64,000 nt of DNA, from NCBI RefSeq assembly GCF_019285515.1, contig NZ_CP079095.1:1550001-1614000 (forward strand), read 5' to 3'. This document shows positions 12,609 to 61,652 of this stretch, piece after piece. Numbering within the stretch: the stretch's first letter is position 1; every line of letters begins with the position of its first letter. Source of the DNA: Methylococcus sp. Mc7. GTDB lineage: Bacteria; Pseudomonadota; Gammaproteobacteria; Methylococcales; Methylococcaceae. The notes below the pieces were generated by a model. It was given only the letters and a program-made list of their open reading frames with translations, was not told the DNA's origin and made no database searches. Made by a program: the position numbers and the translations under genes.

Positions 12609-12899
12609 ATGAACGTGGGGGTGTGCTATGCGGATTCCGACCGCCAGCTCTGGCTCCGGATGGAGATGCCGGATGAGAGCACGGTTGAACAGGCCATCCG
12701 CTACTCGGGCATTCTGGAACGGTTTCCGGAAATCGACCTGGGCGTCCAGAAAGTCGGCATCTTCGGCAAGCTGGTGAAACTGGACGCGCCGGTGAAGGAA
12801 GGCGACCGCATCGAGATCTATCGTGCGATCACCGCCGATCCCAAGACGGTGCGGCGCCGCAAGATCGCTTCCGACGACGATGATGACGACGACGATTGA
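12609..12899 (+). CDS. rnfH: RnfH family ubiquitin-like protein with poly-aspartate tail
   Basis: The 96-residue protein starts MNVGVCYADSDRQLWLRM and has the beta-grasp family pattern (VGIFGKLVKLDAPVKEGDRIEIYRAI). RnfH proteins are ubiquitin/ThiS-like but lack the terminal Gly-Gly; their role with Rnf is unclear. The last eight residues are all aspartate, encoded by a GAC/GAT run at about 12873-12896. The next gene starts inside that run in another frame. Confidence 0.9.
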   Translation: MNVGVCYADSDRQLWLRMEMPDESTVEQAIRYSGILERFPEIDLGVQKVGIFGKLVKLDAPVKEGDRIEIYRAITADPKTVRRRKIASDDDDDDDD

Positions 12900-13254
12900 T
12901 GCCGACACCCGGCGCCGGGGCGAAGCCGTCTGCGCAAGGCTCCTGGACGAAATCGAGAAGTTGGGCATCGCGCCCGGCCGGCTTGCGCGGCTGCCCGCCT
13001 ATGACCAGGCCGAGTTCGAATCCAGCAAAGACCCTTACAGCGGCGAGGAGACCCTCTGCGGCCATTGGCGCGACGCCCGCGGCCACAGCATCGGGCAGAT
13101 GAAATTCCATGGCGACGGCTCGTTTTATGCCGAGTTCGACGTGGTCCTTCCGCACCCCACCGATCCGCGCTGGTTCGTGGAGGGCGTAACGGCCTGGGGC
13201 CGGGGCGATGCGATCAAGAGCGAGGCGAAGCTGCTGGAGACTCTGGGGGAGTGA
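12883..13254 (+). CDS. Conserved hypothetical protein overlapping rnfH
   Basis: The protein of about 123 residues starts at ATG 12883 or 12880 inside the poly-aspartate codon run of rnfH, read in another frame as Met/Thr. It continues DADTRRRGEAVCARLLDEI and contains a likely beta-rich half (CGHWRDARGHSIGQMKFHGD, FYAEFDVVLPHP). No known domain is recognised. Overlap with rnfH suggests coupled translation and membership of the rnf operon. Downstream the REPIN-like repeats begin. Confidence 0.65.
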   Translation: MTTTIDADTRRRGEAVCARLLDEIEKLGIAPGRLARLPAYDQAEFESSKDPYSGEETLCGHWRDARGHSIGQMKFHGDGSFYAEFDVVLPHPTDPRWFVEGVTAWGRGDAIKSEAKLLETLGE

Positions 13255-13294
13255 AAAGCGTGCGAGTCATCGCACAAGAAGGGGGTCAAAGAAG

Positions 13295-13342
13295 GGGGTC
13301 AGGTCTTGCATATGAGCATGACGTTTTGCAAGACCTGACCCC
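13295..13342. repeat. REPIN-like 48-bp palindromic element, copy 1
   Basis: Two perfect 16-bp inverted arms, GGGGTCAGGTCTTGCA and its complement, enclose a 16-base loop (TATGAGCATGACGTTT). The same arms occur as single ends of the RAYT element at 33572-33587 and 36242-36256. This suggests a non-autonomous derivative mobilised by that transposase. Confidence 0.85.
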
Positions 13343-13375
13343 TTCGCGTGACCTGACCCCTTCGCGTGCGCGGGA

Positions 13376-13444
13376 GAGCCGTGTGCGGGAAAACCGCCCG
13401 CACGGTTCGGAGGGCGGGGAGGCGAAAGCCTTCCCAACCCCTAT
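13376..13444 (+). ncRNA. Group II intron 3' fragment (domains V and VI), copy A
   Basis: Bases 13376-13408 fold as a domain V hairpin: the GAGCCGTGT and GCACGGTTC arms, an upper stem GCGG/CCGC with a GAAAA loop, and a two-base CC bulge. The AGC catalytic-triad position is present. Bases 13409-13444 fold as domain VI (GGGGAGGC/GCCTTCCC with a GAAA loop) with bulged adenines before CCCC, and end CTAT like an intron 3' terminus. Upstream domains and any reverse transcriptase are absent, so this is a remnant. Confidence 0.7.
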
Positions 13445-13590
13445 CATCATCCAGGGCGGCTGGTCGGCATGAGCGGTTAGTCTGTTTTAGCCGAGAGTCG
13501 CTCGTCCTGCCATCCCCCTCCAAACGCCCGATACAGCGAAACCAGCGAAACCAGCGTTGCGGTCCGGGCTTTGACGTTTTTGTGAAGAAG

Positions 13591-13638
13591 GGGGTCAGGT
13601 CTTGCATATGAGCATGATGTTTTGCAAGACCTGACCCC
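13591..13638. repeat. REPIN-like 48-bp palindromic element, copy 2
   Basis: Same 16-bp arms as copy 1; the loop reads TATGAGCATGATGTTT, one base different. It starts about 10 bp after the end of direct-repeat copy A and lies upstream of the exported-protein gene. The tail that follows has related but different short repeats (CTGCGTGTTTGACCC). Confidence 0.85.
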
Positions 13639-13802
13639 TGCGTGTTTGACCCCTGCGTGTTCAGAAACGATCCTCACGGCGATTTGAAAGTCCCGTGAGG
13701 ACTTTGTGATCACGCGCCCGGCATAGTGGCTCCGCGTCCGCCAAACCTGTTTCGGCGAGGCGACGTATTTGCCCAAGCCACTTCAAATCAGGAGTATCTG
13801 TC

Positions 13803-14849
13803 ATGCGAAACACCCGTAACACCTCCCTTCCCTCAACCCCTTTCCACTCTCTGACCGGCGCGCTGTTGCTCGCCGGTTTGGGCCTCCTGTCTTCCAATGT
13901 CTATGCAACGGAGAACGAAGGGAGCCGCGACCTATTTATCCGCAGCGCCGTGGAAAACCCTACGGAAGATACCGTGAACCTGCCCCTTTATCGCGGCCGC
14001 AGCCAGGGGCAGACGGTCTGGTATGTGGTGCTGGACGCCTCCACCGGCACGGCGGCGGAAAAATACGGTGTCAACCGTGCCGACAAGCTGAAAAATGCCA
14101 GAGGCACGGCCGCGGTGCAGAAGGTCCGCCTCGTAGATGGCCTGATCGAGTTTCCGGCGACGGTGGATTTCAGACCGGAGCGCCTGGTGGTCCCCGGCCC
14201 ATCTGGTTTTCCTCCTCTAGCCGTGCAGCCGGGCGCGGTCGGTCAACCCGGTTACAGCCCTTTGATTGAATTGCCGGATGGCACCATTCTCAATGCGCCG
14301 CATCTGGCCAACGATTCAGGGCAAGCGGACAAGGTGGTCGCGCTCGACACCGGGGCTCGCAGCGTGACGTACAAAGAAACGGAAGGGTATGCGAACGGCA
14401 AGGAGGTCTATTACGTCTCCACCGATGCCTCGGGCTTTACCGCCGCGGCGCTGGAAGGGGTGACTTTCGCGCCGCAGCTGGACGCCGCACCGTTCTTGGG
14501 CGGCGACGGCAGCAAATCCGCCCGCGCCGCGCTGGCCGCCTTCGTCAACGGCCAGACCGGCGCCGACAACCCGGAACGTCAGGGGCTCAACTCGGCCCTG
14601 CTGGATGGTCTCGACCCGCTCAACGTGATCGCCTGGACGCCGAATCAGGGTCGTTACAGCCCGCTTTGGGACGTGCATCTCGCCAAGTGGAGCGATGCCG
14701 CCGTGACCGATGGGCTGAACGTGATGCAGGAGGACTTCGGCGACATCCTCGGGCTGGCCCGGAAGGGTCTGGTGACCGCACCCGGTGGCGCGAAGTTCGG
14801 TCCGGCGGGCTTCATCGTCAACTGCCCGGTGGTCAGCCGGGTCAGGTGA
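13803..14849 (+). CDS. Exported protein of unknown function
   Basis: The 348-residue protein has an N-terminal signal peptide (hydrophobic core GALLLAGLGLLSSN, probable cleavage after VYA). The mature part is rich in beta-type sequence, with two similar stretches (VWYVVLDASTGTAAEKYGV and EVYYVSTDASGFTAAALEG) that look like an internal duplication. The C-terminal part contains YSPLWDVHLAKWSD. I do not recognise the family. An AG-rich site (TCAGGAG) precedes the ATG, and a strong terminator follows 20 bp after the stop. It is a single-gene unit bracketed by REPIN elements and by the two direct-repeat copies, suggesting it arrived as a cassette. Confidence 0.8.
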   Translation: MRNTRNTSLPSTPFHSLTGALLLAGLGLLSSNVYATENEGSRDLFIRSAVENPTEDTVNLPLYRGRSQGQTVWYVVLDASTGTAAEKYGVNRADKLKNARGTAAVQKVRLVDGLIEFPATVDFRPERLVVPGPSGFPPLAVQPGAVGQPGYSPLIELPDGTILNAPHLANDSGQADKVVALDTGARSVTYKETEGYANGKEVYYVSTDASGFTAAALEGVTFAPQLDAAPFLGGDGSKSARAALAAFVNGQTGADNPERQGLNSALLDGLDPLNVIAWTPNQGRYSPLWDVHLAKWSDAAVTDGLNVMQEDFGDILGLARKGLVTAPGGAKFGPAGFIVNCPVVSRVR

Positions 14850-14870
14850 GGCTCGGCCGCCTCGTTCGAT

Positions 14871-14900
14871 CGCCGCCGGGCCGTCCGGCGGCGGTCTTTT
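14871..14900 (+). terminator. Rho-independent terminator of the exported-protein gene
   Basis: A nine-base perfect stem CGCCGCCGG/CCGGCGGCG with a five-base loop is followed by GTCTTTTCC. It lies about 20 bp after the stop codon. Confidence 0.75.
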
Positions 14901-14918
14901 CCTTCGCGGAGCAAGAAG

Positions 14919-14966
14919 GGGGTCAGGTCTTGCATATGAGTATGACGTTTTGCAAGACCTGACCCC
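14919..14966. repeat. REPIN-like 48-bp palindromic element, copy 3
   Basis: Same 16-bp arms as copies 1 and 2, loop TATGAGTATGACGTTT. It lies just after the terminator of the exported-protein gene. Confidence 0.85.
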
Positions 14967-15027
14967 TTCGCGTGTGACCCCTTCGCGTGACCCCTTCGCG
15001 TGACCTGACCCCTTCGCGTGCGCGGGA

Positions 15028-15096
15028 GAGCCGTGTGCGGGAAAACCGCCCGCACGGTTCGGAGGGCGGGGAGGCGAAAGCCTTCCCAACCCCTAT
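15028..15096 (+). ncRNA. Group II intron 3' fragment (domains V and VI), copy B
   Basis: Identical to 13376-13444. Domain V is at 15028-15060 and domain VI at 15061-15096. The intron end lies about 30-35 bp beyond the stop codon of the convergent efflux gene. Confidence 0.7.
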
Positions 15097-15128
15097 CATC
15101 ATCCAGGGCGGCTGGTCGGCATGAGCGG

Positions 15129-16577
15129 TTAGTCTGTTTTAGCCGAGAGTCGCTCGTCCTGCCATCCCCCTCCAAACGCCCGATACAGCGAAACCAGCGA
15201 AACCAGCGTTGCGGTCCGGGCTTTGACGTTTTGATCCAGGGCCGAGAGTCTGCCGCTTTTGGCATCGAGCACCGAAAGGTAGTCGCCGGCCCCCCGTTCA
15301 TACAGCGCCTCGGCCGAGCGCCGGGCCTGTTCCGCCGCGGCTTCCGCCTGCAGCAGGCGGGCGTGGCGTTCGCTGGCGGTGCGATGGGCTAGATAGGCGT
15401 TTTCGACGTCCTCCAGCGCGAGCAGGAAGGTCTTTTCGTAATTCGCCGCCACCTGGTCGAGCCTTGCATCGGCGGCCGCGATCTGCGAGCGGATGCGCCC
15501 CGCATTGAAGACCGGTGCGGTCAGGCCCGAGCCGAGCGCATAGACGCTTTCCGCGAGGCTGGGAAAACCGCCGACCGCCAGGGCGCCGAAGCCGCCGCTG
15601 GCCGACAGCACCAGTTTCGGCAGCAGGTCGGCGCGGGCCGCCCCCAGGCTGGCTGCGGCGGCGAGGACTTCGGCCTGGGCCTGGCGGAGGTCGGGCCGCT
15701 GCACGAGCAGGCTCGACGGCAGCAGTTGGGGAATGGAGGGGGCCGAGGCCGGCAACGGACGGGAGGCGGCCAGCCTGGCTTGCAGTGCCTGCGGTGGTTG
15801 GCCGGTCAGGATGCTCAGGCGGTGGATCAAACGGACGGCGGTTTCGTTCAGCGCCGGCAGGGCCGCCTCCGCGCTTTGCAACAGCGCTTCCTGGCCTGCG
15901 ACGCCCGCTTCGTTGGCGAGGCCGGCGCGGTAGAAGGCCTTCAAGGCTTTCAGCCGCTCGCGCTGCACCGCGAGATTGTCTTCGAATATGGCCGTCTGCC
16001 GCTGCACTCCGCGCAGTTCCAGGTAGTTCGTCGCCACCTGCGCCAGGAGGCCGACCTGGGCCGCGTGTAGCGTTTCTTCCACGCCCAGCGCCTGGGCCGC
16101 CGCCGCTTCGGCTTCCAGGTGGCGCTGGCCGAACAGGTCCAGCTCCCAGCGCGCGGAGAGGCCGCCGGTGACCATGTCGGCGGTGGGCGTGATCAGTTGG
16201 TATCCCTGCGAGCCGGGCACGGCGATGATGCGGTCGATCCGTTTTTCGCGTCCGCCGGAGGTGAAGAAATCGATGCTGGGATAAAGCGCGGATTCCGCGA
16301 CGACCACCATCGCCGCGGCCTCCCGGACCCGGGCCTGGGCACCCCGGAGGTCCTGGTTGGCGGCCAGCGCGCGGTCGATCAGGCCGTCCAGAACCGGGTC
16401 ATCGAATTTCTTCCACCAGTCTTTCAGGGCCGCAGGGTCGGATACCGGCGCCGCCGGCGCCTGAGCCCAGTTTTCGGGCACGGCCGGGGCCGGGGGGGGA
16501 TCGACCCGGGTCGGCGTGCAGCCGTACAGCAGGCTTGCGGCCAGCGCGCCGGCCAGCACCTTACGGAACGGTTTCAT
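15129..16577 (-). CDS. Outer-membrane efflux lipoprotein (NodT/OprM family)
   Basis: The 482-residue protein begins MKPFRKVLAGALAASLLYGC, a lipoprotein signal with a YGC lipobox. Two OEP repeats follow (SARWELDLFGQRHLEAEAA, then QAQAEVLAAAASLGAARADL), as in NodT/OprM channels. The start at 16577 is chosen over 16649 because AAGGAGGG sits 5 nt before it and the signal peptide then begins at residue 1. It forms the exit duct for the adjacent RND pump and periplasmic adaptor. Its last ~100 bp are duplicated at 13478-13580. Confidence 0.9.
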   Translation of the reverse strand: MKPFRKVLAGALAASLLYGCTPTRVDPPPAPAVPENWAQAPAAPVSDPAALKDWWKKFDDPVLDGLIDRALAANQDLRGAQARVREAAAMVVVAESALYPSIDFFTSGGREKRIDRIIAVPGSQGYQLITPTADMVTGGLSARWELDLFGQRHLEAEAAAAQALGVEETLHAAQVGLLAQVATNYLELRGVQRQTAIFEDNLAVQRERLKALKAFYRAGLANEAGVAGQEALLQSAEAALPALNETAVRLIHRLSILTGQPPQALQARLAASRPLPASAPSIPQLLPSSLLVQRPDLRQAQAEVLAAAASLGAARADLLPKLVLSASGGFGALAVGGFPSLAESVYALGSGLTAPVFNAGRIRSQIAAADARLDQVAANYEKTFLLALEDVENAYLAHRTASERHARLLQAEAAAEQARRSAEALYERGAGDYLSVLDAKSGRLSALDQNVKARTATLVSLVSLYRAFGGGWQDERLSAKTD

Positions 16578-16645
16578 GCGCGCCCTCCTTGGCGCGCCCC
16601 CTTCGGGCAGCCTCCGGCTGTCCAAATTCGCTCCCGACGAATTTG

Positions 16646-19600
16646 TCATGCGGCCTCCTCGCGCCGGCCGACCCTGAACCAGGCCGCGTAGAGCGCCGGC
16701 AGGAAGAACACCGTGAGCAGGGTGGCGACGGTGAGACCGCCCATGATGGCGATCGCCTGCGGAGCGAAGAAGTCGTTGGTGGACAGAGGGATCATGGCGA
16801 GGATCGCGGCCGCCGCCGTGAGCATGATCGGCCGGAAGCGGCGGACCGTGGACTCGATGATGGCGCGGCGGGTGTCGAGGCCGGCTTTTTCGTCCTGCTC
16901 GATCTGGTCCACCAGGATGACCGAATTGCGCATGATCATGCCGGCCAGGGCGATGATGCCGAGCAGCGCCACGAATCCGAACGGCGCCCGGAACAGCAGG
17001 AGGGCGAAGGCGGCGCCGATCACGCCCAGGGGCGCCGTGACGAAGACCAGGAAGGTCCGGGACAGATTCTGCAATTGCAGCATCAACAGCAGCAGCGTGG
17101 CAACGATAACCAAGGGAATCCAGACCAGAATGGATTTCTGCGCGGTCCAGGCGTCCTCCCTGGCGGCGCCGGTTTCGACGAAATAGCCGGGCGGCAGCTC
17201 GTCCAGGATGGGTTTGAGCGCCGGTTCTATCTCCGCCGCCACGTCGGGTGCCAGCATGCCGTCGGTCACGTCGGCGCGCACCGAGATCGCCGGGAAGCGG
17301 TTGCGTCGCCAGCGCACGCCGTCCTCGAACACGGTTTCGAACCGCACCAGTTGGGACAGCGGTACCGGGTTGCCGCTGCCGGCAGGCACGGCGAGGTCGG
17401 GCAGGCCGCCGGCGTCCGTCCGCAACCGGGGCTGGGCGCGCCAGACGATGTCGATGAGCTTGTCGTCTTCGCGGAGTTGTCCCACCGTCACGCCGCTGTA
17501 GTAAGCCTGCAGGGCTCGGGCGAGAGACGCGGTGCTGACGCCCAGCGTCCGTGCCTTGTCCTGGTCCAGCGCCAGGCGCAGCGAGGGAATGCGCTCGTGC
17601 CAGTCGTCGTTCACGTCCACGGTATGCGGATTGGCGCGCATGACCGCCGCCACCCGGTCGGCGACGCCGCGGACCACGGCGGGGTCTTCGCCGAACACCC
17701 GGAATACCACGGGATAGTCCATCGGCGGGCCGACGTTGAGCCGCATGGCGCGCCCGCGCACTTCCGGAAAATCGGCGGCCAGTGCCTCGCGGACCCGCCG
17801 CATCACCCGTTCACGGGCGCCGTTGTCGCCCGTCATCACCACGAATTCGGCCAGATTGGCATTGGCGAGCTGCTGCACGATGAGCAGGAAAAAGCGTGGG
17901 CTGCCGCCGCCGATATAGGTGGCGTAATTCAGCACATCCGGGTCTTTGGCCAGAACCGCCTCCATCCGCTTGGCCGCGGCTTCGGTCTGGGCGAAGCTGC
18001 TTCCCTCGGGCAGCCACAGGTCGATCACGACTTCCGGCCGGTTCGACAGCGGGAAAAACTGCTCCGGCACCCGGCTCAAGGCCGCGATGCCGACGGCGAA
18101 CAGCGTGGCCGTCGCCAGGATCACCTTGCCGCGGTGCTCGACGCAGGCCGACACCCATCCCCGCAGGCGGTTGTAGAAGGGTGTGTCGTAGAGTTCGTGG
18201 GCGAAGCCGGCTCCGGCGCCTTTCGGTCGGAGCGCCATGAATCCCAGGTAAGGCGTGAAAATCACCGCGCCGAACCAGGACAACAGCAGCGAGAGCCCCA
18301 CCACCTGGAAGATCGCTTGCGTGTATTCGCCGGCCTGTGAACGGGCCAGGCCCACCGGCAGGAAGCCGGCGATGGTGATCAGGGTGCCGGTGAGCATCGG
18401 AAAGGCGGTGGCGCGGTAGGCGAAGGTCGCGGCCCGCATCCGGTCCCAGCCTTCCTCGAGCTTCCGGGCCATCATCTCGATGGCGATCATGGCATCGTCC
18501 ACCAGCAGGCCCAGCGCCAGGATCAGCGCGCCCAGGGAGATGCGGTGCAGGGCGATGCCGGCCAGCAGCATGCCGAGCAGGGTGGCGGCCAGTACCAGGG
18601 GCACCGTCAGCGCGACGACCGCACCCGCCCGCAGCCCCAGACTTAGAAAGCTGACCAGGAGCACCGCCGCCAGGGCTTCGAAGAAAGTGCGCTTGAATTC
18701 GCCGATGGAGCGTCGGACGACCTGTGCCTGGTCGGCGATCTTTTCCACCTCGATGCCCACCGGCAGCTCGCTTTCGATGCGCTTCAGCGTGGCGTCCAGG
18801 GCTTTTCCCAGCGCCAGCACGTCGCCTTTCCTGTTCATGGCGATGCCCAGCCCGATCACGTCCTTGCCGTTGAAACGCATCCGGAATTCCGGCGGGTCGG
18901 CGTAACCGCGCTTGACTTCGGCGAAGTCACCGACCCGGAAGGTCCGGCCGCCGACGCGCACCGCGAGATTCGCCACGTTTTCCACCGAGTCGAAGGCCCC
19001 GCTGATCCGGATCGGTAGATCGCCCGCGGCGGTGTACACCGTTCCCGCGGGCGCCATGGCGTTCTGGGTCTGCAGGGCGGCGGCGACCTCCGTGGCGTCC
19101 AGTCCCAGCCGGGCCATCTTCTTGTCGGAAAACTCGATGTAGATCTTTTCGTCCTGGGCACCGATCAGGTCGGCCTTTTCCACGTCCTTGACCCGCAGTA
19201 TCTGCTGACGGGCGGCGTCGACCTGATCCTTGAGCCGGGCGTAATCGAAGCCTTCGCCGGAAAAGGCGTAAACCAGGCTGTAGGTGTCGCCGAATTCGTC
19301 GTTGAAGAAGGGGCCGATGACGCCCTGCGGCAGTGTCATCCGGATGTCGCCGATTTTCTTGCGGACCTGGTACCAGATGTCGGCGACCTCTTCCGGCGAG
19401 GTCTCCTCGCGCGGCACCACGAAGATCAGCGATTCTCCCGGCTTGGAATAACTCCGCAGGTGGTCGAGGTCCGGAAGCTCCTGGAGCTTTTTTTCCAGGC
19501 GGTCGGTGAGCTGCTGCTCCACCTCGCGTGCGGTCGCGCCCGGATACAGCGTCTTCACCACCATCAGGCGGAAGGTGAATTCCGGATCCTCCCGCTGTTC

Positions 19601-33538: not shown

Positions 33539-33595
33539 GGTGGCGCCTCTTTCAGAGTGTATAGGTGTGTAGGGGTCAGGTCTTGCAAAGAGATA

Positions 33596-35357
33596 CCTGA
33601 ATCCGTGTTCCCCTCGGCTTACACCTTCCCATCGGGCCTGAACGCATGAATTTCGAGCGCTCTCCCTTGGGATTTGCCCTCGCTACCGGCGATCCGGGGA
33701 ACGTTCGACCGGGGTTTCGGGGCCAATCTGCTTGGCGTGCGCTTATCGTCAGCTCATTTTCCGCTCCATGCGCGAGACTGTCCCTTCCGGGGTTCCGGAA
33801 TCAGGGATTCGAGGCGTGCGGCAGGCATTTCCCGTCATCCGGACGCCGCCGCCCACAGCCGATTCTGAAGCATCACGAACACGGCTACGTTTGCCGCCAC
33901 GCCACGGCCGAAATCGAGGATCAGCCGGCGGGCATGGGCGACGAACTTCGCCGCCCGGTACATGATCTCCTGTAGCACGGTCCGGATGCGGCGGCGCTTG
34001 GCCGGATGACGGATCGGCGCAATCTCGCCGGTCAGGCCGATCTGTCCCAAGAGACGCAGGCAGTTGTAGGCGAAGGCCGCCAGATGCAGGATCACGTCGT
34101 TGGTGTCGAACTTGCCCGAGGGCAGCCGCTCCAGATCGAGGTCGGTCTTGACAAGCCCGAAGGGCGCAGGACGCCACGCAGTGGCGGTCCTGAGCGAAGC
34201 GAAGGATTCGGCGGAGCCGAACAACTCGGAGTGGAACTGCTCATGCATGCCGTGGTGCTGGTAGAGTTCGATCACTTCCTCGGCGGAACAGGAGAGCGTC
34301 GTCCACCAGCCTTCCAGTTCGACCTCCGGGGCCAGCAGGTGTTGGCCCTTCTTGTCGATGGTGCGCTCGGTCACCTGGGCGACCAGGCGGAAGGAGCGCT
34401 TCTCCTTGTGCCAGGCGCGTTCCACTTCCAACGACAGCAACGCAACCCGCTTGCCTGGACGAGCCTCGGCAAAGGCGCCCGCCTCCTCGGCGCGCTTGAC
34501 CCAGTCCCCCTTGTCCTGCTTGCGGGGGTTCCACTTGCAGATGAAGTCGAGGCTTCGCCCCAGCGCGGCTTGCCGGTCTCGCTCCGCGGCCTTGGCGAAC
34601 AGAAGCTGTGCGCCGTCGAAACCGCTGTCCTCGCGCAGCAGCACGGGCTGATCCGGTTTGACCAGGCGTTCGATGCGCGGAAACAGCCGCTCGTAGAAGT
34701 AGTGCGTCTCGAACGCCGAGTGGCGGGACCCTGGCCTCAGTTCCAGCCCGGTGTTCCAGCCTTCGTTGCCGAGATAGGCGGCAATCGGCGTGTAACCGTC
34801 GAAGCCCTGATAGGTGCGCGACACCGCTTCCTTCTTCGTGCCACTATTGTCCATGGCGAAGGTATCGATGTCGCAGCAGACATAGCCCTTGTGCGGCGTG
34901 ATCGGCGCCTCGGTTCGCTCCAGCAGCCTCAGGGAAAGCTCATCGGCCAGATCGCGGATGGCTTCCGCCTTGGCATTCAGACGCTGGCGCAGCCACACGG
35001 CTCCGGGCACCTTCGTCAGCCCCAGCGACTCCTTGAAGAAGCGATCATTCCGGAATGGCTCGATGGCTTCGAAGTCGCTCTTGCCCAGACTCAACAGCCC
35101 GACCACGCTCTTGACGATGTCCGAGGTACGCATGCCTTGCGACACCGGGATCTTCGGGTCAATGACCGCCTCCACCTGCGCCGCCTGGCAGCACTGGCCA
35201 ATCAGCGCCAGGCCGGAATACGAGGTCAGTTGCAGCTTGCTGGATTGCTTGACTTCAAAGCGCGGCATGATCAAATGGGTGACATCGAAAATGGGCTAAT
35301 TATACAATGGATTCAATATGTTATGAATTATTTAGAGGGTGGGAGCACGGATTCAGG
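33596..35357 (-). mobile_element. IS1380-family insertion sequence, copy 1 (1762 bp)
   Basis: The element is bounded by inverted ends CCTGAATCCGTGTTCCC and (complement of) GGGAGCACGGATTCAGG, which differ at one of 17 bases. It is flanked by a 5-bp target duplication AGATA (33591-33595 and 35358-35362). It encodes one 479-residue transposase. A copy in the opposite orientation, apparently identical, lies at 38921-40682. Confidence 0.92.
33835..35274 (-). CDS. IS1380-family transposase, copy 1
   Basis: The 479-residue DDE transposase starts MIMPRFEVKQSSKLQL. It contains YVCCDIDTFAMDNSGTKKEA (first catalytic Asp region), VLLREDSGFDGAQLLFAKA (second Asp) and a C-terminal YQHHGMHEQFHSEL (Glu region), the IS1380/IS4-like order. 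The translation matches the copy at 39004-40443 along its length, indicating recent transposition. Confidence 0.93.
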   Translation of the reverse strand: MIMPRFEVKQSSKLQLTSYSGLALIGQCCQAAQVEAVIDPKIPVSQGMRTSDIVKSVVGLLSLGKSDFEAIEPFRNDRFFKESLGLTKVPGAVWLRQRLNAKAEAIRDLADELSLRLLERTEAPITPHKGYVCCDIDTFAMDNSGTKKEAVSRTYQGFDGYTPIAAYLGNEGWNTGLELRPGSRHSAFETHYFYERLFPRIERLVKPDQPVLLREDSGFDGAQLLFAKAAERDRQAALGRSLDFICKWNPRKQDKGDWVKRAEEAGAFAEARPGKRVALLSLEVERAWHKEKRSFRLVAQVTERTIDKKGQHLLAPEVELEGWWTTLSCSAEEVIELYQHHGMHEQFHSELFGSAESFASLRTATAWRPAPFGLVKTDLDLERLPSGKFDTNDVILHLAAFAYNCLRLLGQIGLTGEIAPIRHPAKRRRIRTVLQEIMYRAAKFVAHARRLILDFGRGVAANVAVFVMLQNRLWAAASG

Positions 35358-35384
35358 AGATACATTCCAATATACTCTGCCCCA

Positions 35385-36263
35385 ATGGCAAGACCATTAC
35401 GTATAGAACTGTCCGGCGGTCTGTATCACGTCACGTCACGCGGCGACCGGCGCGAGGATATCTATCTGTCCGATGATGACAGGAAAGCATGGCTGGCGTT
35501 GTTAGGTGAGGTCTGCCGACGCTTTAACTGGGTCTGCCATGCATATTGCCAGATGACCAATCATTATCATCTGCTGGTCGAGACCCTGGAGGGCAATCTT
35601 GCCCAAGGTATGCGGCAACTCAATGGGGTTTATACGCAGTTTGTGAACCGGACACATGGGCGTGTTGGTCATGTATTCCAGGGACGCTACAAGTCGATCA
35701 TGGTAGAAAAAGATAGTTATCTGCTGGAGCTGGCGCGCTACGTGGTACTCAACCCGGTGCGGGCCGGTATGGTAGGCGATGCCGGGGATTGGGCCTGGAG
35801 CAGTTACCCGGCAACGATAGGTGGGGCTCCGTCGCCATCCTGGTTGCAAACGGATTGGATTCTTGGGCGGTTTGGCCAGCAACGGGATAGGGCGCGCGCC
35901 GGATATGTGGATTTCGTTCGTGCAGGCGTCGGGTTGCCCAGCGTTTGGGATAATTTGCAAGGCCAGATTTATCTCGGCAGCGCAGCATTTGTTTCCCGCA
36001 TGCAATCGCTGCTGCCATCGGATGAGGTTTTGAATGAGATTCCACGCATACAGCAGCGGCCCATTGCAAAGCCACTGGCACATTATCGCGAAGAATTTTC
36101 TGATGATCCTCGTACGGGCATGGCCTTAGCTTATCTTTCCGGCAATTACTCAATGAAAGCTATCGCCGAGATATTCGGCGTGCATTACACTACAGTCAGT
36201 CGAGCGGTCAAAGCGTATGAAACTAAGGGGTTATGCGGTTATGCAAGACCTGACCCTGCTTGA
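35385..36263 (+). CDS. REP-associated tyrosine transposase (RAYT, Y1 HUH nuclease) with C-terminal HTH
   Basis: The 292-residue protein starts MARPLRIELSGGLYHVTSRG. The HUH metal motif is QMTNHYHLLVET, and a conserved tyrosine lies in the helix YLLELARYVVLNPVRAGMV. The C-terminus has a helix-turn-helix (MKAIAEIFGVHYTTVSRAVKA). Y1/HUH enzymes of this type nick single-stranded DNA at REP-like hairpins. The start ATG 35385 lies just outside the IS; longer frames run into IS sequence. The last codons (YARPDPA) are written by the element's terminal repeat. The IS insertion separates it from its left end and probably from its promoter. Confidence 0.9.
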   Translation: MARPLRIELSGGLYHVTSRGDRREDIYLSDDDRKAWLALLGEVCRRFNWVCHAYCQMTNHYHLLVETLEGNLAQGMRQLNGVYTQFVNRTHGRVGHVFQGRYKSIMVEKDSYLLELARYVVLNPVRAGMVGDAGDWAWSSYPATIGGAPSPSWLQTDWILGRFGQQRDRARAGYVDFVRAGVGLPSVWDNLQGQIYLGSAAFVSRMQSLLPSDEVLNEIPRIQQRPIAKPLAHYREEFSDDPRTGMALAYLSGNYSMKAIAEIFGVHYTTVSRAVKAYETKGLCGYARPDPA

Positions 36264-56590: not shown

Positions 56591-57109
56591 ATGAACGGTT
56601 TGAAGATCGATCGGGTTCTGGTGGGCGAGGCTCTGGTCGGCGAAGGCAACGAACTGGCGCATATCGATCTCATCATGGGACCCCGCGGGAGCGCCGCGGA
56701 GCTGGCCTTCTGTACCACCCTCACCAATCAGAAGCGCGGCGACAACGCCTTGCTCGCGCTGGTCGCGCCCAACCTGATGGCGAAGCCGGCCACGGTGATG
56801 TTCAACAAGGTGGAAATCAAGAACGAAAAGCAGGCGACCCAGATGTTCGGACCTGCGGAACGCGGCGTTGCCAAGGCGGTCGTGGATTCGGTCAAGGACG
56901 GTATCATCCCGAAGGCGGAGGCCGAGCAGATATTCATTTGCGTCGGCGTGTTCATCCACTGGGACGCCCAGGACAACGCAAAGATCCAGGACTGGAACTA
57001 CCAGGCGACCAAGCTGGCGATCGCCCGAGCGGTGGGAGGCAAGCCGGGCATCGAAGAAGTCATCGCGCAGGAGGACGTCGTACACCATCCCCTTGCAGCA
57101 CATGACTAA
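56591..57109 (+). CDS. fae: Formaldehyde-activating enzyme
   Basis: The 172-residue enzyme condenses formaldehyde with tetrahydromethanopterin, the entry to the C1 oxidation pathway of methylotrophs. It has [20 protein letters not shown] with the conserved catalytic histidine, [18 protein letters not shown], and [21 protein letters not shown]. The length is typical. It is a single-gene unit with its own leader, which suits high expression. It is the clearest lifestyle marker in the window. Confidence 0.97.
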
Positions 57110-57165
57110 CGATCATGGCGACCAGCCGCCCTGGATGATGAAAGTAACTGCCCGCCATGATCGTT
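57108..57165. repeat. 13-bp perfect inverted repeat downstream of fae
   Basis: AACGATCATGGCG (57108-57120) and its exact complement (57153-57165) are separated by 32 bases. The first arm includes the last bases of the fae stop codon. It may be an mRNA 3'-end stem loop or the end of a small mobile repeat. There is no T-run, so it is not a classic terminator. The 204 bp that follow (57166-57369) hold no convincing gene. Confidence 0.6.
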
Positions 57166-61467: not shown

Positions 61468-61652
61468 GTATTCCCCGTTTGCGCCGTAGCATGCTTTCGC
61501 CCTTGAACCAAACGGTTCAGGTGGGACCAGAGGATGCCGAATCAGGCTTTCCGCCCGGAGCGGACTTGCGCACATCGAGCATCCGGAAGTCCCGGGGTTT
61601 TAGATTAGGCTCAAAGAGTAACCCAGCACGCTTCGAGCGTTACAGGGAATAC
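61468..61652 (-). ncRNA. ssrS: 6S RNA
   Basis: The minus-strand transcript of about 185 nt (E. coli 6S is 184) lies exactly between zapA and fau, the conserved position. Its ends pair (GTATTCCC at 5' and GGGAATAC at 3'). The 3' half contains CACCTGAACCGTTTGGTTCA followed by AGGG, as in 6S RNA. 6S RNA binds sigma-70 RNA polymerase by mimicking an open promoter. Exact ends are estimated from the closing stem. Confidence 0.88.

Follow-up and report, generated by a model that had tools for sequence, protein, structure and literature searches.

Three 48-bp palindromes in Methylococcus sp. Mc7, their probable derivation from TIRYT-type transposable elements, and the repeats at their edges

The DNA considered here is a stretch of 64,000 nucleotides from Methylococcus sp. 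Mc7 (NZ_CP079095.1, positions 1,550,001 to 1,614,000, forward strand), called the window below and supplying all coordinates unless the chromosome is stated. It contains three near-identical 48-bp palindromes, P1 to P3, whose arms recur at the ends of an element with a Y1/HUH transposase gene some 20 kb away, and the question it raises is what these palindromes are, how they came to surround a single gene and what produced the short tandem repeats at their edges. An earlier sequence-only reading had taken them for recent, separate insertions of derivatives of a repetitive extragenic palindrome (REP)-associated tyrosine transposase (RAYT). We think it probable, at roughly two chances in three, that they are instead miniatures of a TIRYT element, that is, of a Y1 gene bounded by long terminal inverted repeats (TIRs), and that cleavage at one C|T step within the TIR followed by strand transfer left both the repeats, here termed ladders, and a 245-bp duplication.

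Palindromes, arms and the resident transposase element

The palindromes and the transposase element comprise the following features.

13295..13342, no strand assigned: P1, 48-bp palindrome, probable left-end/right-end fusion of a TIRYT element
13591..13638, no strand assigned: P2, 48-bp palindrome
14919..14966, no strand assigned: P3, 48-bp palindrome
33572..33587, plus strand: left end (TIR) of the TIRYT element, exact arm
33835..35274, minus strand: IS1380 transposase open reading frame (ORF); the insertion parts the TIRYT gene from its left end and is bracketed by GAGATAC
35385..36263, plus strand: TIRYT Y1/HUH transposase, 292 aa, with H60-Y-H62, Tyr119 and a C-terminal HTH_28 domain
36242..36257, minus strand: right-hand TIR of the TIRYT element, with a single mismatch (A instead of G at the outermost base)

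The anatomy first described for the palindromes was recovered exactly, with arms GGGGTCAGGTCTTGCA and complement at 13295-13310 and 13327-13342 in P1, at 13591-13606 and 13623-13638 in P2, and at 14919-14934 and 14951-14966 in P3. Each folds into a perfect 16-bp stem with a 16-nt loop (-18.2 kcal/mol, a value matched by none of 200 shuffles), and the loops differ by one base between P1 and P2, one between P1 and P3 and two between P2 and P3. Ten matches to the arm with at most three mismatches are found in the window, a number reached by none of 100 dinucleotide shuffles. The whole-genome search which that reading proposed returned few copies, 12 exact arms in the 4.0-Mb chromosome: six in the three palindromes, one at the left end of the window TIRYT, one in an imperfect fourth palindrome (chromosome 2239390-2239437) and four in transposase-deletion derivatives (chromosome 2658213-2658548, near 2662769, and 2723217-2723522). 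Elements with GGGGTCAGGTCTTGTC-type ends and transposase remnants are also present at chromosome 819402 and 1990448.

That the ORF at 35385-36263 encodes a Y1 transposase was confirmed by its Y1_Tnp domain (Pfam, 40.4 bits) and by the presence of H60, H62 and Y119 in all 51 aligned homologues; an in-frame upstream ATG at 35307 is also open. The RAYT label fared less well. The left TIR, GGGGTCAG at 33572, fits the motif GGGGWSAS given for TIRYT elements (PMC3733652), and the right TIR, AGGGTCAG at 36257 on the minus strand, is one base off; the protein ends in a helix-turn-helix (HTH) domain (HTH_28, 31.5 bits, residues 246-283), as do the subclass 2.1 TnpA-Y1 proteins that Quentin et al. tentatively equated with TIRYTs (PMC6006769). 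At the foot of the P1-P3 hairpins, flanked by AAGAAG and by TTCGCG/TGCGTG, the tetranucleotide GT[AG]G is absent, and the protein scores 73.2 bits against the NCBIfam REP-transposase model NF047646, whose cut-off is 80. Because of the GGGGWSAS ends and the C-terminal HTH, together with the missing GT[AG]G foot and the score below cut-off, the element appears better classed as a TIRYT ("TIRtron") than as a GTAG-REP RAYT. An IS1380-family insertion at 33595-35370, bordered by GAGATAC at each end, separates the gene from the TIRYT left end and may have changed expression of the TIRYT transposase.

Similar palindromes are widespread. Scanning species genomes with the pattern GGGGTCAGGTCTTG-N8..38-complement yielded at least 120 stretches with at least 127 distinct palindromes, so prevalence is a lower bound. 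Among the matches listed, palindrome-bearing records belong to Bacillota/Peptococcaceae, Chlorobi, Nitrospirae, Elusimicrobia, Acidobacteria, Rokubacteria, Synergistaceae, Actinobacteria, Aminicenantes, Omnitrophota, Verrucomicrobia and many proteobacteria, and in the 19 genomes or records searched whole up to 51 palindromes per genome were counted. When 19 resident TIRYT elements from 19 genomes were compared by eye with palindromes of the same genomes, the inner bases clearly matched in nine, over about 8-12 bases beside the core (for example TATTTTAGCATTTT, ACCCGTGCCTTC and CATTTTCGCAT); G322 was left out of the clear matches, its gene ends being inseparable from neighbouring derivatives. 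Because palindromes and resident TIRYT ends agree in their inner bases in these nine genomes, the palindromes are best read as fusions of a left and a right TIRYT end from which the gene has been deleted.

In 40 palindrome-bearing genomes chosen from the scan stretches, a homologue of the window protein was found in 32 at E<=1e-8 and in 24 at E<=1e-30, the latter threshold being reached in 87 of 274 genomes sampled, without taxon matching to the 40, from the class to which the window belongs. Wide occurrence of the arms without the transposase, which the sequence-only reading had named as fatal to its proposal, is thus mostly not what is seen, the exceptions being eight genomes taken up below. 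Its broader claim of a transposase element accompanied by non-autonomous derivatives is borne out, core arms being common to both. The narrower tie between these derivatives and the window transposase holds for the core arms and only partly for the inner bases, and since the arm core is common to many phyla, arm identity alone cannot prove that the window TIRYT made P1-P3. Mobilisation of P1-P3 is something we infer, and the intact 292-aa ORF at 35385 would be the best local candidate for the enzyme.

Boundary ladders, the duplication and the history of the locus

Each palindrome is bordered by ladders, and P1 and P3 additionally share a long duplicated flank.

13276..13294, no strand assigned: P1 left ladder, AAGAAG + GGGGTCA + AAGAAG
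13343..13367, no strand assigned: P1 right ladder, TTCGCGT + GACCTGACCCC + TTCGCGT
13639..13661, no strand assigned: P2 right ladder, TGCGTGTT + TGACCCC + TGCGTGTT
14967..15020, no strand assigned: P3 right ladder, four TTCGCGTG units with 5-10 TIR bases between them
13336..13580, no strand assigned: first copy of the exact 245-bp duplication, starting within the P1 right arm at C|TGACCCC
14988..15232, no strand assigned: second copy of the 245-bp duplication, extending into the intact NodT/OEP gene

A ladder consists of 5-13 flank bases and an outer part of the TIR, tandemly repeated beside the element. Such tails, noticed in the sequence-only reading, proved to be real and specific to these elements. 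Regardless of TIR bases, the last six flank bases were repeated at 50 of 290 palindrome sides, and at 15 of 284 when the test was moved 25 nt outward; at 519 distinct TIR edges (some nested in one array, some from loci of the same genome) the 6-mer was repeated in 89, compared with 10/513, 19/411, 12/404, 11/401 and 13/491 when shifted outward by 100, 150, 200, 300 and 400 nt. Repeats that include at least five matching TIR bases occur at 48 of the 519 edges and at 1, 2, 1, 0 and 0 in the five shifted controls. The TIR part is exactly 7 nt long in 23 of these 48 ladders, which by our count come from 15 genomes or records. A part of this length places the joint, on the 3' arm, at GACC|TGACCCC, the sole C|T in the core CAAGACCTGACCCC and also the point from which the 245-bp duplication runs.

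Related enzymes of the TnpA-REP type cleave C|T in vitro (and one of them C|A as well) next to their hairpins, and the tyrosine link formed at the 5' end is resolved once a 3'-OH oligonucleotide is supplied, according to the portions of PMC8266576 covered here. A fixed break at TGACCCC combined with an arbitrary second break fits what chemistry of this kind would leave. On the reading preferred here, two TIRs of a Y1/HUH element would have been joined directly by deletion of the gene, and the fusion, when single-stranded, would fold into a 16-bp hairpin that a TIRYT-type enzyme would recognise. The enzyme would cut the 3' arm repeatedly at GACC|TGACCCC, and the 5'-tyrosine-linked TGACCCC end would be joined to any nearby 3'-OH, yielding tandem ladders of flank and TGACCCC. 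An event on a larger scale, as if reaching 238 nt into the flank, would yield the 245-bp duplication, which sets P1 apart from P3 and whose two copies enclose P2, the DUF7482 gene and P3.

The main rival to cleavage at C|T is replication slippage, according to which the palindromes are TIRYT miniatures whose ladders arose passively, polymerase stalling in the hairpin and slipping on short repeats, with the 245-bp duplication a product of unequal exchange. Overlap is lacking at 22 of the 48 joints and amounts to 1-13 nt at 13, while the remaining 13 contain extra or changed bases; the corresponding figures for the 23 seven-base ladders are 14, 5 and 4. Both minority classes, like the occurrence of TIR parts of 1-30 nt, are what slippage could leave, and an invariant stem could fix the point at which polymerase stalls. 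The sharp peak at 7 nt, the lack of overlap in 22 of 48 joints (14 of 23 at 7 nt) and the edge of the 245-bp duplication at the very same base speak for cleavage, as does a hairpin control: among 47 other perfect inverted repeats with arms of at least 12 bp at the same loci, the only ones found, none of the 94 sides had four or more arm bases repeated, compared with 55 of the 519 TIR edges. We consider slippage rather unlikely, although overlaps do exist at some joints and polymerase may be held up at the same place wherever the stem is the same.

A ladder of a different kind lies right of chromosome 2723522 (L003), where about four tandem CTGATTAC units adjoin the element; it is a flank-only ladder without TIR bases.

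The palindromes lie in a block that is specific to this lineage.

13255..15127, no strand assigned: lineage-specific block between the ORF at 12823-13254 and a NodT-type efflux gene (15129-16649, minus strand)
13374..13444, plus strand: group II intron domain V/VI remnant (RF00029), within the duplication
13803..14849, plus strand: DUF7482 gene, inside the block
15026..15096, plus strand: group II intron domain V/VI remnant (RF00029), second copy

The 1.87-kb block contains P1, P2, the DUF7482 gene, P3 and two group II intron remnants. A comparison of orthologous sites, suggested in the sequence-only reading, found it missing in four of five congeners, where the matched pieces flanking it are only 30-58 bp apart, so the block is an addition in this lineage; the fifth congener, an 87%-complete genome, gave no match at the orthologous place. 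For the DUF7482 gene there is no homologue at E<=1e-10 in the five congeners; its nearest relative (70% aa) is in another genus of the same family, at a locus with no GGGGTCA/TGACCCC.

This history bears on the original proposal of three recent, independent insertions from a RAYT 20 kb away. Equal 16-bp arms, an intact transposase ORF and the empty site in congeners can all be cited for it. Window 13336-13580 and 14988-15232 are identical throughout, however, and since P1 and P3 thereby have 245 bp of right flank in common, they are not independent insertions; the copy at 14988-15232 is probably the original one because it runs into the intact efflux gene. Core arms common to many phyla, inner bases that differ in part from those of the window element and the interruption of the window TIRYT by IS1380 count against it further, and we regard three separate insertions as improbable.

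Insertion sites

Aligned at the TIR edges, the flanks of 126 palindromes are complementary to each other at positions 1-3 in fractions of 0.62, 0.52 and 0.41, as against null means of 0.33, 0.28 and 0.28. None of 2000 permutations reached the observed value at any of these positions and 19 of 2000 did so at position 4; the 99 palindromes without ladders gave the same pattern. Perfect 3+3 palindromes were found at 39 of 177 insertions (null mean 6.0, maximum 15). A pyrimidine|purine (YR) step spans the insertion in 65% of 175 cases, with a background of 23.5%, and T|A in 60 of 175, with a background of 3.3%. Judged from these flanks, insertions tend to fall at the midpoint of short palindromes with a central YR step, and no clear target duplication accompanies them.

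Two other accounts of the target were set aside. Target duplication was rejected, as no direct repeat of 5 nt or more was seen at the insertions and the excess of 2-nt direct repeats (31 against 14.2 expected) is in part the self-complementary AT|AT (16 of 175). Insertion into long pre-existing hairpins was rejected on account of the weak excess beyond positions 1-3, with 14 flank pairs having at least seven complementary bases (null mean 5.9, maximum 12). A plasmid search for near-identical empty sites returned 10 records.

The possibility that flanks travel with the element, as a "tail" or guide flank, arose from AAGAAG at all three left edges in the window and from GGAGT in a 7.4-kb contig listed as viral (L238, IMGVR_UViG_3300029286_003067). 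That contig, in a set of viral contigs where three stretches have palindromes, holds five of them, and GGAGT stands to the right of four irrespective of loop direction. As a general rule this was discarded, 61 palindromes in four multi-copy genomes having unrelated flanks, though carried flanks may apply to the window copies or to L238. In one genome (G005) a single palindrome is present in three copies (L055, L057 and L058), two of which have at least 36 nt of left flank in common while the right flanks differ, a pattern like that of a one-ended duplication at the element.

Flanks also bear on whether P1-P3 are ordinary, non-mobile host hairpins, such as a terminator, an mRNA stabiliser or a protein-binding site. 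The strong stem and the location of the copies between likely genes (12823-13254, 13803-14849 and 15129-16649) would suit such a role, but there is no T-run 3' of the stem, the same arms end transposase genes elsewhere, presence is lineage-specific, and in multi-copy genomes unrelated flanks meet exact TIR edges, all of which makes a host function very improbable.

Weight of the evidence and known systems

Several observations weigh against the derivation of P1-P3 from a TIRYT by end fusion, cleavage at C|T and palindromic insertion. Concerning parentage, the core arms of P1-P3 match the window TIRYT ends but the inner bases do so only partially, so that this element is a candidate parent and the source may have been another TIRYT or a lost one; in 10 of the 19 genomes compared, the match to the resident TIRYT is partial, unclear or absent, and eight of the 40 palindrome-bearing genomes, all titled metagenome-assembled genomes, have no homologue at E<=1e-8. 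As for the ladders, 25 of 48 break elsewhere in the TIR, at lengths of 6-30 nt, including six at 14 nt, a position other than C|T. The 13 joints with extra or changed bases count here too, as do the 13 with an overlap of at least 1 nt (5 of 23 at 7 nt), although chance alone would produce an overlap at about a quarter of joints. In the four multi-copy families one palindrome of 61 (L276) has a ladder with five or more TIR bases; being so rare there, ladders are not an obligate product. With regard to the target, 138 of 177 insertions are without a perfect 3+3 palindrome and P1-P3 have none in register, GAA/TTC appearing at P1 and P3 if the fifth G is skipped. Finally, at the empty sites for L002 (G010), L001 (G014) and L101 with L106 (G396) the junctions are too diverged for base-level alignment, and the target palindrome may precede insertion or have arisen after it.

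The last alternative, a GTAG-type REP/REPIN family moved by a group 2/3 RAYT, has in its favour the distant kinship of the transposase implied by 73.2 bits with NF047646 and the dimer-like inverted layout, and was dropped as scarcely credible because GT[AG]G is missing from the hairpin foot, this genome has few copies, and the element shows a TIR motif and an HTH domain instead.

The elements belong to a kind already known, though thinly studied. Comparison with earlier work draws on portions of the papers cited. As in the TIRYT/TIRtron elements of Di Nocera et al. (2013, PMC3733652), a Y1 gene lies between long GGGGWSAS TIRs and TIR copies are dispersed, also as dimers or clusters; their remark that large REP clusters recur as tandem arrays together with variable lengths of flanking DNA comes nearest to the ladders. 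The portions of that paper covered give no cleavage site, target site or partial-TIR ladder, whereas here the dimers appear as end fusions across phyla with those features. The TnpA-Y1 proteins of subclass 2.1 (Quentin et al. 2018, PMC6006769) are likewise long, with a C-terminal HTH and no link to GTAG REPs; that study reports no REP-like sequences beside their genes, whereas palindromic derivatives are numerous here. With the REP/REPIN-RAYT systems (PMC8266576) the elements share HUH-Tyr chemistry and palindromic non-autonomous partners, and C|T cleavage is likely a common trait, but they differ in having no GTAG foot, a TIR at both gene ends, a low copy number and exact TIR edges. The IS200/IS605 elements IS608 and ISDra2 belong to the same single-strand-acting Y1 family, and again there is no clear target duplication; they have short subterminal hairpins and insert by a conserved tetranucleotide at the left end, whereas the elements described here have true inverted repeats and varied flanks with a preference for palindromic YR sites.

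Where TIRYT enzymes cut or insert is not told in the covered portions of PMC3733652 and PMC6006769. In the literature searched, which included little subscription literature, neither the string GGGGTCAGGTCTTG nor any description of partial-TIR ladders, their break point or a palindromic target preference was found; among the matches listed for palindromic targets and for boundary duplications, the only papers bearing on this family were PMC6006769 and PMC3116915.

More tentatively, and with the odds somewhat against it, the ladders could be the fossil record of a distinct Y1 reaction in which the cut falls at C|T seven bases inside the TIR, the flank is amplified and insertion at palindromic YR sites is dimer-driven. 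The acceptor 3'-OH would then probably be a nascent strand at a replication fork, the amplified flank would span from 5-13 bases up to hundreds, the target step would be symmetric and dimer-driven, unlike that of IS608, and TIRYT miniatures would act as devices for local duplication and gene capture. The ladders, the break point and the target preference make the enzyme's reaction directly testable, as the sequence record offers a falsifiable cut site, GACC|TGACCCC, and a target rule, the YR-centred palindrome, while miniatures of the P1-P3 type provide compact substrates. They also suggest how very small hairpins might duplicate and rearrange the genes next to them.

Some minor observations concern the remainder of the window. 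The intron remnants at 13374-13444 and 15026-15096 are identical to each other, and near-identical 3' ends lie at chromosome 3560432 and 3605253. A second dispersed repeat, with ends like AACGATCATGGCGACCAGCC and complement, is present at 13441-13480, at 57104-57144 and at about a dozen other places in the chromosome, and in part comes after the intron remnant, as if an intron had inserted into the repeat. A 6S RNA (RF00013) is located at 61468-61651 on the minus strand.

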